Assembly (NCBI RefSeq): GCF_036345995.1
Contig: NZ_CP107796.1
Coordinates: 2,170,001-2,234,000 of the forward strand
Source: Streptomyces sp. NBC_00557
GTDB taxonomy: Bacteria > Actinomycetota > Actinomycetes > Streptomycetales > Streptomycetaceae
Length of the DNA stretch: 64,000 nt
Direction: 5' to 3'
The notes beneath the pieces are model-generated. The model was not told the origin of the DNA. It saw nothing but the letters and a program-made list of their open reading frames with translations, and did not search any database. How positions within the stretch are numbered: the first letter of the stretch is position 1; every line of letters begins with the position of its first letter. Below are positions 43,939 through 48,913 of the stretch, piece by piece. The translations under genes were made by a program, and so were the position numbers.

Positions 43939-44055
43939 TCGCTTGACGCAAACTCTGCCAATGGGTTGCATACGTTTTGTGATCGTGCACCCCGCTCCAC
44001 CTTCCTGTTCACTTGTCTCCGTCAGGGCGTCGTCACGGGCAGGGGGCACCGCGTC

Positions 44056-45660
44056 ATGGACCCGGTGATCGTCGTCGGAGCGGGGCCGGTCGGGCTGGCG
44101 CTCGCTCTGGCGCTGGCCCGACAGGACGTGCCGTGCGTCGTGCTGGACGAGGGCCCCGGCAAGGACGAACCCCGCCCGGCCCGGACCGTCGTGCTGCGCG
44201 AGCACACCGCCGCCCTGCTGGAGCGGCTGACCGGGGTGGCGCTCGACGAGCACGGTGTGCGCTGGGCCGGATGGCGCTCGGTCCGGCGCAAGCAGGTCAT
44301 GACCGAGATCGCCTTCGACGCGGACGATCCCGCGGCCCCGCTGCACATCGCCCAGCACACCGTCACCGGCGCCCTGCGCGCGGCCGTCGCCGACGAGCCC
44401 CTCGTCAGGCTGGCCGTGGACAGCCGCCTGGACGGGATCGAGCAGGAGCGTTCCGGCGTCACCGCGCACACCCGCGGCCCGAACGGCACCTGGTGGCGCG
44501 GCAGTTACCTGGTCGGCTGCGACGGCCCGCGCTCCACGGTACGCAAACTCCTGGACGTCCGTTTCCCGGGCCGTACGGCGGTGGAGCGGCACGCGGTCGC
44601 CGCGCTGCGCGCGGAACTTCCCTGGGAGGGTCGCGCGTTGCTCCATCGGATGCCGCCGTGGCGGCAGTCCGGGCCCTCGGCCGGGGAGGTGACCGCCCGC
44701 CCCCTCCCGGACGGGGTGTGGCGCCTGGACTGGTTGCTGCCGCCGGGCAAGGACCTAGTCACGCCCGAGATCCTGGTGGCCCGGATCCGCGAGACCCTCG
44801 CAGGCTGGACCGACGGCTCCACACCGGCGTACGACCTGCTCGACACCGGTGTTCACACGGTGCACCACCGGCTGGCCCGCCGGTGGCGCGTCGGCCGGGT
44901 CTTCCTCGCCGGGGACGCGGCCCACCTGCTGGGCGCGCTCGGCACCCAGGGGCTGGACGAGGGGCTGAGGGACGCCGACAACCTCGCCTGGAAGCTGGCC
45001 TCGGTCTGGCATCACGGCCCGCGCGAGGCGCTGCTGGACAGCTACCAGTCCGAGCGGCGTGCGGTGATCGCCGCGCGGCTGCGCGCCGCCGACCAGGCGC
45101 TGCCGGTGCTGCGCGGCGGAGGCGGGCTGCGCCAGATCGTGCCGGGTGCGGCGCGGGGCCACGACGCGCTGCTCGCGGACGGCCACCTGGGGCGCGGGCC
45201 GCTGGGTGCGCCGGGGGCGTACTCCTCCTCTCCGCTCACGCCCGGGCAGCTGGAGGGTGAGATCCCGGTCGGCACCCTGCCCGGCGAGCCGGTCACCGAC
45301 GTACGGGTCACCGCGGAGGATGGTTCCTTCGTCCAGTTGCGCGACCGGCTCGGCCGCGGCGCCCTGCTCGTGGTCCTGATCGCGCCGGGCACGGGCGTGT
45401 GGGACCGCAAGCACTGGGTCTCGGCCGGAGTCATGCCCCGCCTCGCGGCGGCCGTGACCGCCCTGCCGTGCCCGGCGGAACTGCTGGTCGCCGAGAGCTA
45501 CCCGGGTGCGCCGGCGCACAGCGTGCTGCTGGTACGCCCCGACGGCCATCTGGTCACCGCGCTGAGCGGGGTCCGGCCGGCCGACCTGTACTCGGCGGCG
45601 GAGGCGGCGGTGGGCGGCGCGGCCAGGGAAGAGGCACGGGTCGCTTCCGGCGCCCGCTGA
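44056..45660 (+). CDS. FAD-dependent aromatic monooxygenase (PHBH-like)
   Basis: A 534-residue flavoprotein hydroxylase of the p-hydroxybenzoate hydroxylase superfamily. FAD motifs: VIVVGAGPVGLALALALAR at the N-terminus, the DG motif LVGCDGPRSTVRK near residue 155 and VFLAGDAAHLLGALGTQGLDEGLRD near residue 285. The C-terminal 130 residues form a thioredoxin-like domain as in phenol hydroxylase and the RdmE/PgaE group. The start is ATG at 44056 after GGGGG. It stands alone between two terminators, with a TTGACG motif about 110 bp upstream. The substrate is unknown; no biosynthetic cluster surrounds it. Confidence 0.88.
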   Translation: MDPVIVVGAGPVGLALALALARQDVPCVVLDEGPGKDEPRPARTVVLREHTAALLERLTGVALDEHGVRWAGWRSVRRKQVMTEIAFDADDPAAPLHIAQHTVTGALRAAVADEPLVRLAVDSRLDGIEQERSGVTAHTRGPNGTWWRGSYLVGCDGPRSTVRKLLDVRFPGRTAVERHAVAALRAELPWEGRALLHRMPPWRQSGPSAGEVTARPLPDGVWRLDWLLPPGKDLVTPEILVARIRETLAGWTDGSTPAYDLLDTGVHTVHHRLARRWRVGRVFLAGDAAHLLGALGTQGLDEGLRDADNLAWKLASVWHHGPREALLDSYQSERRAVIAARLRAADQALPVLRGGGGLRQIVPGAARGHDALLADGHLGRGPLGAPGAYSSSPLTPGQLEGEIPVGTLPGEPVTDVRVTAEDGSFVQLRDRLGRGALLVVLIAPGTGVWDRKHWVSAGVMPRLAAAVTALPCPAELLVAESYPGAPAHSVLLVRPDGHLVTALSGVRPADLYSAAEAAVGGAAREEARVASGAR

Positions 45661-45668
45661 TCGGGAGG

Positions 45669-45698
45669 ACCGTCACCCTCTGTCCACATGGTGACGGT
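45669..45698 (+). terminator. Terminator after the FAD monooxygenase
   Basis: ACCGTCACC (45669-45677) pairs perfectly with GGTGACGGT (45690-45698) around a 12-base loop, just upstream of the promoter of the cysteine-leader operon. A second role as an operator is possible. Confidence 0.6.
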
Positions 45699-45701
45699 GA
45701 G

Positions 45702-45730
45702 TTGACCGAACCACACCGGCATGCTGTACT
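45702..45730 (+). promoter_or_regulatory. Promoter of the cysteine-leader/cysteine dioxygenase operon
   Basis: -35 TTGACC (45702-45707), a 17-base spacer and -10 TGTACT (45725-45730). Transcription would begin about base 45737-45738, exactly at the ATG of the leader peptide, so the leader is probably translated from a leaderless transcript. Confidence 0.65.
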
Positions 45731-45737
45731 CCGGACC

Positions 45738-45824
45738 ATGACCGACACCTGCGTGCGCCTGTGGCGGAGGGTCCACATGGACCTCGTCCGCTACGCGGGC
45801 TGCGTGTGTCGCCCGCCCTGCTGA
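45738..45824 (+). CDS. Cysteine-rich leader peptide (probable cysteine-responsive attenuator uORF)
   Basis: A 28-residue frame from ATG at 45738 to TGA at 45822-45824. It has Cys at positions 5, 22, 24 and 28, ending Gly-Cys-Val-Cys-Arg-Pro-Pro-Cys, with the last Cys directly before the stop, and a basic RLWRRVHMDLVR middle typical of actinobacterial putative leader peptides. It lies 76 bp upstream of a cysteine dioxygenase gene. Cys-rich uORFs that slow ribosomes when charged tRNA-Cys is scarce are known to control sulfur genes in mycobacteria; here the downstream enzyme degrades cysteine, so regulation by cysteine supply makes sense. No ribosome site precedes the ATG; initiation is probably leaderless. 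Confidence 0.7.
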   Translation: MTDTCVRLWRRVHMDLVRYAGCVCRPPC

Positions 45825-45900
45825 ATTCGCATCTCTTTTCCCTTCCGGGCGCCTCGCAGCGCCCGTTCGCGAACCCTCTTCAGGCTTCAGGACGGTGTAC

Positions 45901-46434
45901 GTGTCTGTCTCCCCTGCTTCCCTGTCCCCTGCCGTCGGCTCGACGCCCACCCAGGCGGACCTCCTCGACTTCGTACGGCGCACCGCCGCCGACGCCGAGC
46001 TGATCGCCTCCCTTCCGCTCGATCCGGAGGGCCGCACCTGGGTGCGGCTGGAGGGTCCGGGCGGCAGCGAGGCCTGGCTGATCGGCTGGCCGCCCGGCAC
46101 CGGCACCGGCTGGCACGACCACGCCGACTCGGTCGGCGCGTTCTTCACCGCCTCCGGCACGCTCAAGGAGAACTCGCTCGCCGCCCGGCTGCCGACCGAC
46201 GGCTGGAAGACCCTCGAACTCACCGAGGGCGTGGACCGCGAACGCCGGCTGGCCGCGGGCCAGGGCCGCGCCTTCGGCCGCCACCATGTCCACGAGGTTC
46301 TCAACGAGTCCCGCGAGGAGCACGCGATCTCCGTGCACGCCTACTATCCGCCCCTGCCCCGCATCCGGCGCTACAGCCGCACAGGTCAGGTCCTCCGCCT
46401 CGAGCAGGTCGAACGCCCGGAGGACTGGCAGTGA
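45901..46434 (+). CDS. Cysteine dioxygenase family protein
   Basis: A 177-residue cupin-fold non-haem iron enzyme that oxidises cysteine to cysteine sulfinate. The iron ligands are His72 and His74 (GWHDHADS) and His131 (RHHVHEV). WVRLEGPGGSEAWLIGW is the first cupin strand pair. The start chosen is GTG at 45901, 8 bases after AGGA; a GTG at 45895 is closer to that site than usual. The stop overlaps the rhodanese start by 4 bases (GTGA), so the two are translationally coupled. A cysteine-rich leader peptide precedes it. Confidence 0.88.
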   Translation: MSVSPASLSPAVGSTPTQADLLDFVRRTAADAELIASLPLDPEGRTWVRLEGPGGSEAWLIGWPPGTGTGWHDHADSVGAFFTASGTLKENSLAARLPTDGWKTLELTEGVDRERRLAAGQGRAFGRHHVHEVLNESREEHAISVHAYYPPLPRIRRYSRTGQVLRLEQVERPEDWQ

Positions 46435-46841
46435 GCGGCACCGGTCGGTCTCCGGTCGGCATCGACGAGTTGCTGGAGCGGGTGCGCGCGGGCTACCGGC
46501 GCATCGAGGCCCGCGAGGCGTACGAGGCGGCGCGGACGGGCGAGGCGCTGCTCGTCGACATCCGGTACGCGGCCCTGCGCGAGCGGGACGGGCTCATCCC
46601 CGGCGCGCTCGTCGTCGAGCGCAACGAACTGGAGTGGCGCCTCGACCCCCAGGGCAGCCACCGTCTCCCCGAGGCCACCAGCCACGACCTGCGTGTGGTG
46701 GTGGTCTGCAACGAGGGGTACGCCTCCAGTCTCGCCGCCGCCTCCCTGCACCAACTGGGCCTGCACCGGGCGACCGACCTGGTGGGCGGCTTCCAGGCAT
46801 GGCGGGCCGAAGGCCTGCCGGTGGAGCCGGCCACGCCCTGA
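46431..46841 (+). CDS. Rhodanese-like domain protein (sulfurtransferase)
   Basis: A 136-residue single-domain rhodanese. LLVDIRYAALRERDGLIPGALVVERNELEWRL is the typical first half; the active-site loop is VVVCNEGYASSLAA with catalytic Cys near residue 91, and VGGFQAWRAEGLPV closes the fold. It would carry sulfane sulfur as a persulfide. The GTG start at 46431 overlaps the cysteine dioxygenase stop, pairing cysteine oxidation with sulfur transfer. Such neighbours usually deal with excess cysteine or reactive sulfur. Confidence 0.9.
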   Translation: MSGTGRSPVGIDELLERVRAGYRRIEAREAYEAARTGEALLVDIRYAALRERDGLIPGALVVERNELEWRLDPQGSHRLPEATSHDLRVVVVCNEGYASSLAAASLHQLGLHRATDLVGGFQAWRAEGLPVEPATP

Positions 46842-46850
46842 CCGAGGTCC

Positions 46851-46877
46851 GAACCCCCGTGCCGGGCGCGGGGGTTC
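46851..46877. terminator. Bidirectional terminator between rhodanese and recX genes
   Basis: GAACCCCCG (46851-46859) pairs perfectly with CGGGGGTTC (46869-46877) around a 9-base loop, between two convergent stop codons. Confidence 0.8.
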
Positions 46878-46927
46878 TGCCGTCTCCCGGTGACCAGGAG
46901 CAGAACAGGCGGCACTTCGGTGCAGGG

Positions 46928-47782
46928 TCAGAAGTCCCCTTCGAGGAACTCGGTGTCCTCGCCCTCTTCCTCCAGTGCCCGGCGGACGACGCGGAGGGCC
47001 ATGCCCTCGGGGTAGCCCTTGCGGGCGAGCATGCCGGCGAGGCGGCGGAGCCGCTTGTCGCGGTCGAGGCCACGGGTGGCACGCAGTTTGCGGGCCACGA
47101 GTTCGCGGGCCGTCGCTTCCTCCTGCTCGGAGTCGAGCTGGGAGACGGCCTCGTCGATCAGCGCCGAGTCGACCCCCTTGGTGCGCAGCTCCTGGGCGAG
47201 CGCCCGGCGTGCGAGCCCCCGGCCGTAGTGCCGTGACTCCACCCAGGCGTCCGCGAACGCGCCGTCGTCGATCAGCCCGACCTCCTCGAACCGCGACAGC
47301 ACCTCCTCGGCGACGTCCTCGGGAATCTCCCGCTTGCGCAGGGCGTCCGCGAGTTGCTTGCGGGTGCGCGGGGTCCCGGTGAGCAGGCGCAGGCAGATCG
47401 CCCGTGCCCGCTCAGCCGGGTCCCCTGAAGACTCCCCCCGCTCGGCCCTCGACGAGGAAGGGGCGCCTTCGTCCTCACCGGGCGCATCTCCGAACCCGCG
47501 CCGTCTCCGGCCGCGGGCCCGGCCGCCCCGCGGACCCGTGCCGCCGTGGGACCGGCCGGGCGAGCCGTCCCCGTACGGCTCGCCGCCCGGGTCACCCGGG
47601 TGGAAGCCGCCGTCGTCCCTGTACCGCCGGCTGCCGTGGTCCGGGTCGTGCTCGCCGTGACCGTCGTCCCGGTGTCCGCCGTCACCGCCGGGTGCGGAGT
47701 CCGAGCCACCCCCGGTGCCCCTCCCCCGTGGGGCACCGGGGGTGGCGTACTCGTACTCGGCCCAGTCGGTTCGTCGTGTCAC
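46928..47782 (-). CDS. recX: Recombination regulatory protein RecX
   Basis: A 284-residue modulator that binds RecA filaments and limits their activity. The C-terminal 160 residues carry the three-helix repeats of RecX ([41 protein letters not shown] and [15 protein letters not shown]). The first 115 residues are a Gly/Asp/Arg-rich extension common in Streptomyces RecX. The start is GTG at 47780-47782, three bases after the recA stop, so recA-recX is one operon with recX translated from read-through ribosomes. Confidence 0.94.
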
Positions 47783-47785
47783 GGG

Positions 47786-48913
<1,128 letters not shown>

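Follow-up and report, generated by a model that had tools for sequence, protein, structure and literature searches.

Attenuation by leader peptides is a textbook way of switching biosynthetic genes. In the tna operon, the leader peptide TnaC stands before an amino-acid catabolic gene and carries conserved residues upstream of its critical codon. In mycobacteria, related Cys-containing leaders are reportedly relieved by cysteine shortage. Papers citing Canestrari et al. (2020) describe the Ms5788A-type leaders as cysteine-responsive attenuators acting on translation, and Shell et al. (2015) is a further source on leaderless small ORFs of mycobacteria. For actinobacterial cys and cbs genes, Seliverstov et al. 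(2005; PMC1262725) described short ORFs with Cys codons near the stop and no obvious terminator; in the accessible part of that paper these precede biosynthetic operons of Mycobacterium, Propionibacterium, and Bifidobacterium, and not of Streptomyces. The same source provides, in the LEU element of leuA, a precedent for leader codons pairing with a downstream Shine–Dalgarno (SD) sequence, although that element concerns leucine, a pseudoknot, and a biosynthetic gene. A reannotation of Streptomyces lividans lists, in its accessible part, eight amino-acid leader peptides, none of them cysteine-dependent (PMC8079986). The metL leader before metNIQ, assigned to methionine in that reannotation, ends in CMCRRMCAF, and given these three Cys near the stop and the H2O2 induction of metN in Streptomyces coelicolor (PMC4991794), it may likewise respond to cysteine. 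Among the matches listed by a literature search, with subscription journals mostly outside its coverage, none described a leader preceding cysteine dioxygenase in Streptomyces.

We analyzed a window of 64,000 nucleotides from Streptomyces sp. NBC_00557 (NZ_CP107796.1, positions 2,170,001 to 2,234,000 of the forward strand), in which a short Cys-rich frame precedes a cysteine dioxygenase gene (Table 1). The leader translates to MTDTCVRLWRRVHMDLVRYAGCVCRPPC and a stop, with Cys at codons 5, 22, 24, and 28 of 28, and a gap of 76 nt separates its stop from the dioxygenase GTG at 45901. This anatomy, including the TTGACC-17-TGTACT promoter and the four Cys codons, had been laid out in the original prediction and was found as described. 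It is not a product of chance: with Cys making up 0.74% of the codons in the 31 window ORFs taken as genes, the probability of at least four Cys in 28 codons is about 5e-5, and the conservation of the leader frame across loci rules out a chance ORF. Based on the spacing of the start codon to the –10 hexamer, the mRNA is predicted to be leaderless and to start at 45738. A sigma-70 scan listed no promoter at the locus, explained by its rule demanding A at the second –10 position, where TGTACT has G. We found no terminator-like sites in 45640–46000 and rejected an intrinsic-terminator attenuator consisting of a hairpin and a U run; an Rfam search of 44000–48500 returned only two weak matches near 47.7 kb, far under the gathering scores. 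The sequence GTCCACATGG is found twice, at 45682–45691 upstream of the promoter and at 45771–45780 inside the leader. The rhodanese-domain gene at the other end of the locus is likely in one operon with the dioxygenase.

Table 1. Features of the dioxygenase locus (positions within the window)
Feature	Position	Strand	Remarks
–35 hexamer TTGACC	45702..45707	+	TTGAC/TTGAT at 17–18 nt spacing in 84/88 distinct loci with a –10 match
–10 hexamer TGTACT	45725..45730	+	17-nt spacer from TTGACC; start codon 7 nt downstream
Leaderless 28-codon leader peptide ORF (predicted)	45738..45824	+	ATG here, GTG in 49/93 distinct loci; NF042934 match
Motif R-R-V-H-M-D-L-V-R, codons 10–18	45765..45791	+	(Nearly) invariant residues across 42 distinct loci, codon 17 excepted
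Cys codon 22, TGC	45801..45803	+	Extra Cys, absent at that place from 13 sister leaders
Cys codon 24, TGT	45807..45809	+	Family Cys, 11 residues past the motif His; proposed sensor codon
5' arm of proposed SD-masking stem	45813..45830	+	Leader ORF end, stop codon, post-stop TTCGC
GC-rich hairpin GGGCGC-ctcgca-GCGCCC between the arms	45847..45864	+	Computed fold
3' arm GCGAA and dioxygenase SD region CAGGACGG (45888–45895)	45869..45895	+	CAGGACGG in 88/92 distinct and 75/76 named loci
Cysteine dioxygenase	45901..46434	+	PF05995 CDO_I, E 9.6e-50; GTG start 11 nt past the start of GGACGG
Rhodanese-domain protein	46431..46841	+	PF00581, E 9.7e-14; overlaps the dioxygenase stop

The leader peptide matched the NCBIfam family NF042934 (cis_reg_atten, "putative leader peptide") with 37.1 bits (cutoff 27; E 1.7e-9) over the full 19 positions of the domain, and Pfam gave no match for it. 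In its predicted leaderless start, its Cys near the stop, and its placement upstream of sulfur genes, the leader resembles the mycobacterial poly-cysteine frames of the Ms5788A type, as these are presented in the sources at hand. It differs from them in having the Cys layout C-x-C-x-x-x-C, without a contiguous Cys run at the C terminus, in scoring 15.5 bits against the Ms5788A equivalog NF042933, under the cutoff of 45, and in its target. Judged by sequence, it is a real and conserved member of a catalogued family with an unusual target. A genome-wide search with NF042934 yielded 19 places with E no higher than 10, nine of which scored over the cutoff, the dioxygenase leader being the best. 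At 14 of the 19 places (L031–L044), the motif lies within a short frame; on reading the loci, the other five (L045–L049) look like chance.

The 13 sister leaders have varied targets. One precedes a ThiS-like protein and a PLP-dependent enzyme that by domain matches are of the CysO–CysM type, and three (L035, L036, and L044) precede luciferase-like monooxygenases. The others include a flavin reductase, a sulfite/nitrite reductase, a GST-domain protein, two ABC permeases, a two-domain rhodanese, a TauD protein, and a 2OG-Fe(II) oxygenase; one leader (L042) precedes a ROK protein with no obvious sulfur link. The sister leaders thus often stand before genes of the sulfur-acquisition type, the sulfur roles being our reading and not clear for all 13, and the dioxygenase is the sole target among the 14 leaders that we would call cysteine-degrading. 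The target here removes cysteine and does not supply it, and the dioxygenase leader further differs from the family by the extra Cys22 and by ending in RPSC or RPPC. Belonging to a family so often found before sulfur genes, the dioxygenase leader appears to wire the enzyme to a cysteine gauge, and the enzyme is perhaps regulated in the same direction as the cysteine-making genes.

The dioxygenase leader and the 13 sister leaders share the outline of the motif. The residue pattern is kept with different codons, so that the H-x-D-L motif looks like a feature of the peptide, and we rejected a cause at the level of DNA or RNA. The Cys 11 residues past the motif His is encoded by TGT in 12 of the 13 sister leaders, L037 having Ser at this place. 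TGT is the rare Cys codon, accounting for 14 of the 102 Cys codons in the 31 window ORFs.

The original prediction had proposed a search for the same leader upstream of the dioxygenase in other Streptomyces. A 341-nt query covering the region had a match in 34 of 61 genomes, all within the genus (34 of 37), and the frame, start, and –10 hexamer were kept in all 30 loci fetched with the region's own DNA. The idea of a leaderless Cys-containing leader tied to the cysteine dioxygenase, mycobacteria-like in kind, was supported overall. With a leader profile, 174 of 199 congeneric genomes matched, 172 of them at E of 5.5e-12 or better and two weakly (G061 and G179, E about 1e-4). The canonical dioxygenase was found in 172 of the 199 at E of 1e-37 or better, the remaining 27 having remote matches only (6.2e-24 or weaker). 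A strong leader match was present in 172/172 genomes with the canonical dioxygenase and in 0/27 without it, where the 27 are made up of G061, G179, and the 25 genomes that gave no match to the leader profile (20 listed, 5 by elimination). Counted per genome, the leader and the canonical dioxygenase are gained or lost together. The two lie on different contigs in at least two draft genomes (G109 and G153).

A large part of the loci, 79 of 121 (L001–L030 and L050–L098), was retrieved by means of the leader itself, through its DNA or its profile, and the presence of the leader is therefore tested only by the 42 others and by 80 named loci that a search with the dioxygenase protein brought up. In the loci retrieved by the dioxygenase family alone (L102–L123 and L132–L151), the leader was adjacent in 42 of 42, 41 of these by pattern and one (L136) read by eye as a variant, WRKVHLDL, that the pattern missed. 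Among the 80 named loci, the part from the motif to the stop was present in 79 (77 by pattern and 2 by eye); the same variant occurs in L193 and L225, and L222 keeps only the second half of the leader. From 120 loci, we obtained 93 distinct sequences, 92 of them with an SD by pattern, which may overlap the 77 pattern-found named loci. ATG or GTG was at the start position in 92 of the 93, and the start codon followed TGTACT or TCTACT by 6–7 nt in 88 of 92 distinct loci; in the named locus L213, there was no RTG at the usual start position. Beyond the genus, a class-wide search with the leader profile matched 24 of 296 genomes, 22 of them in the genus. Upstream of 28 nongenus dioxygenase loci, two of which (L125 and L129) probably have little upstream sequence, a motif leader was found in two, L100 in genome G325 and L130 in G414; both have just one Cys, which occupies the family position. 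As these two carry motif leaders, the association between dioxygenase and leader is either older or has arisen more than once. L100 and L130 belong to two other actinobacterial families.

The original prediction had named loss of the Cys codons in homologous loci as a finding that would speak against it. This is true of some of the codons and not of the one that the family shares. Codon 24 was TGT in all 93 distinct sequences and all 77 named loci. Codon 22 was TGC in 93/93 distinct sequences and in 74/77 named loci, with TGT in one; it encoded Cys in 75 of the 77, being Tyr in L213 and Gly in L246. In 42 distinct leaders drawn from 60 loci, codon 28 was Cys in 38 and codon 5 in 16, and the residues at codons 8–16 and 18–24 were invariant or nearly so. 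The mean codon identity at positions with the same residue was 0.88 in the leader vs. 0.66 in the dioxygenase gene, which served as a control aligned on one motif without gaps, implying that the RNA is constrained beyond the peptide. Selection thus seems to act on both the peptide, as suggested by the motif shared across sister leaders, and the RNA of the leader.

In the relatives, the leader closes with the codons CCG TCC TGC. Within these lies CCGUCCUG, which is exactly complementary to the SD region CAGGACGG, and the longest complement between the leader end and the SD is 8 nt in 72/92 distinct and 69/76 named loci. A second pair of segments, UUCGC just past the stop and GCGAA upstream of the SD, face each other across a C/U-rich tract and the GC-rich hairpin. 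In the minimum-energy fold of the window sequence, 45817–45830 paired with 45869–45891. Unguided RNAalifold on 60 relatives (distinct sequences of at most 95 nt among the 77 pattern-found named loci) produced a leader-end/SD helix and a UUCGC/GCGAA helix with 12 pairs in total; the GC-rich hairpin, whose stem sequence by eye varies between clades, was not in the consensus. None of the 12 pairs showed covariation because both arms are conserved. There was one case of compensatory change, in L138, where it replaces Cys28 by Ser, and the altered SDs of L018, L220, L015, and L149 are not matched by their leader arms. The pairing is conserved in sequence, and the helix itself is predicted. The C/U-rich, G-poor tract, at 45826–45846 in the window and also seen in the relatives, is common after sister leaders and might be a Rho loading site.

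We then modeled the folding with a ribosome on the leader for 41 loci, L015 being left out as it has no SD by pattern. The median energy for opening the SD was 11.9–14.1 kcal/mol on ribosome-free RNA or when the A site was at codons 18–21 and, given a footprint edge at +15, fell to 10.7 at codon 22, 7.3 at codon 23, and 6.2 at codon 24; the position of the step shifts when the edge is set to +12 or +17. The mean unpaired probability of the SD was 0.05 without a ribosome and 0.22–0.25 with a ribosome at codon 24 or later, and in the model the SD is not fully freed even then. For a random 24 of the 92 distinct loci with an SD, we compared the drop in opening energy with a null of synonymous recoding. 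The observed drop was 4.8 kcal/mol vs. 1.6 for the null (SD of the null 2.9, as standard deviation), and 20 of the 24 loci were over their own null mean, the four without gain being L149, L011, L093, and L139; we give no p-value because the loci are related. In the window, codon 27 is CCC, found in none of the other loci listed, and the modeled gain is about 1 kcal/mol. For L172, a near relative, the SD is paired at another place in the minimum-energy fold, and the opening energy still drops by about 2–3. Only 3 of the 13 sister leaders (L033, L035, and L044) unmask an SD and the other ten do not, from which we conclude that SD masking is not a mechanism of the NF042934 family at large. For the dioxygenase, the predicted pairing of the leader end with the SD suggests translational attenuation.

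The genome contains a second, remote CDO_I gene (L152; PF05995, E 2.1e-19) at about 4.909–4.911 Mb of contig C1 on the minus strand. Its upstream region has no motif leader of the NF042934 type; it has a putative leaderless frame, MLAHSALTSTRTAGFFGAASCRCSCCRCSSC, following TTGACA-17-TGTCCT. We looked at this gene in 21 loci, the genome's own and 20 hand-picked ones, and found poly-Cys frames with a TTGAC-type –35 before 18 (L152, L252–L258, L260–L265, and L268–L271), the misses being L259, L266, and L267. The three poly-Cys leaders queried had no match in NCBIfam, and TGT makes up 70 of the 89 Cys codons in these leaders. As judged from sequence, the poly-Cys leader of the second dioxygenase is a new finding, different from the H-x-D-L leader. 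SCO3035 is presumably the S. coelicolor counterpart of this second gene.

The frames beside the window dioxygenase carry recX- and recA-like names, and presumably the gene order is the same in S. coelicolor. Our assignment of SCO5772 as the ortholog of the window dioxygenase rests on these neighbors and on its name, putative cysteine dioxygenase, in PMC3087709. In Table 1 of PMC4991794, H2O2 treatment of S. coelicolor raised SCO5772 8.0-fold and SCO3035 6.54-fold. Co-induced were SCO6094–6102, SCO4164, and SCO2910–2912, and the induced set includes cysDNCH/sir, a thiosulfate sulfurtransferase, and cysM. The induction of SCO5772, SCO3035, and the co-induced genes was lost in an hbpS-senS-senR mutant, and SenR bound a region upstream of SCO6102 (PMC4991794); the response, which depends on HbpS-SenS-SenR, may act at promoters. 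In feather-grown Streptomyces shaoguanensis, two CdoI genes were basal to 48 h and surged 21.65- and 6.36-fold at 96 h, as thiols, cysteine, and cystine were building up; the sulfate-assimilation genes and sir were down at 24–48 h and showed "variable upregulation" at 96 h, and cysM was unchanged (PMC12763843). The cysM homolog in the window genome carries a sister leader. On feather medium, cdo1 and cdo2 were up 50.2- and 8.3-fold (PMC7181669), a rise that would also suit induction by cysteine excess. Cysteine was never varied on its own in these datasets. The anatomy of the leader alone does not fix the sign of the control, and the published data, as far as the accessible parts of the sources go, lean slightly toward the sign of sulfur assimilation, that is, "on when cysteine is short." Two points weigh against that sign: cysM stayed unchanged in the feather study despite the sister leader of its homolog, and making a cysteine-destroying enzyme under cysteine shortage is physiologically odd. 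In a toy model with assumed rates, the fraction of time with the SD open increased from 0.18 to 0.56 and the leader completions decreased from 0.115 to 0.026 per s when tRNA charging dropped from 1 to 0.01; the open time fell with charging only if Cys22 alone was limiting.

Our overall best explanation is a leader attenuation that masks the SD and turns the dioxygenase on under cysteine shortage, to which we tentatively assign a probability of about 0.45. It builds on four features of the sequence: the family match, the promoter predicted to be leaderless, UGU24, which none of the loci counted has lost, and the strict co-occurrence with the canonical dioxygenase. That the frame is a translated, cis-acting leader of the NF042934 family is highly probable, and for SD masking as the main switch we see an even chance. 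In the proposed scheme, ribosomes would start at the 5'-terminal AUG or GUG of the mRNA. With no ribosome at the leader end, codons 26–28, the stop, and the next bases would pair with the SD, and translation of the dioxygenase would be low. A ribosome with UGU24 or a later codon in the A site would cover this arm, making the SD region easier to open; slow decoding of UGU, as expected when charged tRNA-Cys runs low, would in this way increase synthesis of the dioxygenase, alongside the sulfur-acquisition operons behind the sister leaders. The dioxygenase–rhodanese pair would then form a co-induced overflow or sulfur-mobilizing branch of the cysteine-shortage response and not a response to excess.

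The original prediction suggested that the logic could be reversed. In that case, with ample charged tRNA-Cys, ribosomes would pass Cys22 and reach the leader end, the SD stem would open or re-initiation would take place, and the dioxygenase would be made while cysteine is abundant. This fits the catabolic logic of the enzyme and the feather studies, in which the dioxygenase genes rose strongly on the medium (PMC7181669) and at 96 h amid the build-up of cysteine, cystine, and thiols (PMC12763843). The models agree in part: the switch falls between A-site codons 22 and 24 with the +15 edge (10.7 vs. 6.2), the opening energy is 13.6 at Cys22 vs. 7.3 at codon 24 with the +12 edge, and leader completions drop as charging drops; Cys22, moreover, is particular to this leader and missing at that place in the 13 sister leaders. 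Ribosomes stalled at Cys24 would likewise open the stem, however, and with the +17 edge even a stall at Cys22 already largely opens it (7.9). An obligatory Cys22 gate is weakened by the loss of this Cys in 2/77 named loci and by L100 and L130, whose leaders have one Cys only. The reversal also sits poorly with the sister leaders, so often placed before sulfur-acquisition-type genes, and the co-induction of SCO5772 with sulfur operons by H2O2 points the other way (PMC4991794), and we regard it as doubtful, though a serious contender. Rather unlikely, in our view, is Rho-dependent attenuation, in which the C/U-rich, G-poor stretch after the stop would load Rho unless masked by a stalled ribosome. 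Against it, the conservation of TTCGC, GCGAA, and CAGGACGG as islands points to a defined fold, and PMC1262725, where Rho was proposed for the mycobacterial cys leaders, terms its own prediction rather weak in the part accessible to us. In favor of Rho, the region has no terminator-like site and the relatives keep the C/U-rich tract past the stop, the 14 leaders of the genome are followed past their stops by 40 nt with C of 0.40–0.62 and G of 0.15–0.35 (figures for the leaders alone), and the published induction is at the mRNA level (PMC4991794).

Control at the promoter, for instance linked to SenR, would leave a translated leader with little regulatory effect. The loss of SCO5772 induction in the hbpS-senS-senR mutant and the binding of SenR upstream of SCO6102 (PMC4991794) speak for it, but such a leader would hardly be expected to be conserved down to codon choice and to co-occur with the dioxygenase gene, nor would the other dioxygenase gene be expected to have a second, unrelated Cys-rich leader; we find this explanation very improbable. 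A more elaborate reading, which taken as a whole we deem improbable, would make the NF042934 leaders nascent-chain sensors and have both dioxygenase genes captured by unrelated cysteine gauges. R-x-H-x-D-L-x-R would lie in the tunnel when the UGU 11 residues past the His is decoded, with the cysteine state tuning an arrest, and the H-x-D-L leader may run cysteine-on via the Cys22 gate, where the modeled stem starts opening. TnaC likewise has a catabolic target; for the dioxygenase leader, a ligand-induced arrest would be hypothetical.

Whichever way the control runs, the sampled genus appears to couple a cysteine gauge to an enzyme that destroys cysteine, and the genome's second dioxygenase has an independent poly-Cys leader. 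If the sign is inverted, this would be a new use of the attenuator device; if the dioxygenase instead belongs to the cysteine-shortage response, its accepted role comes into question. For the family, the rare UGU, which 12 of the 13 sister leaders have at the same fixed distance from the motif, provides a testable rule for the sensing of tRNA-Cys.
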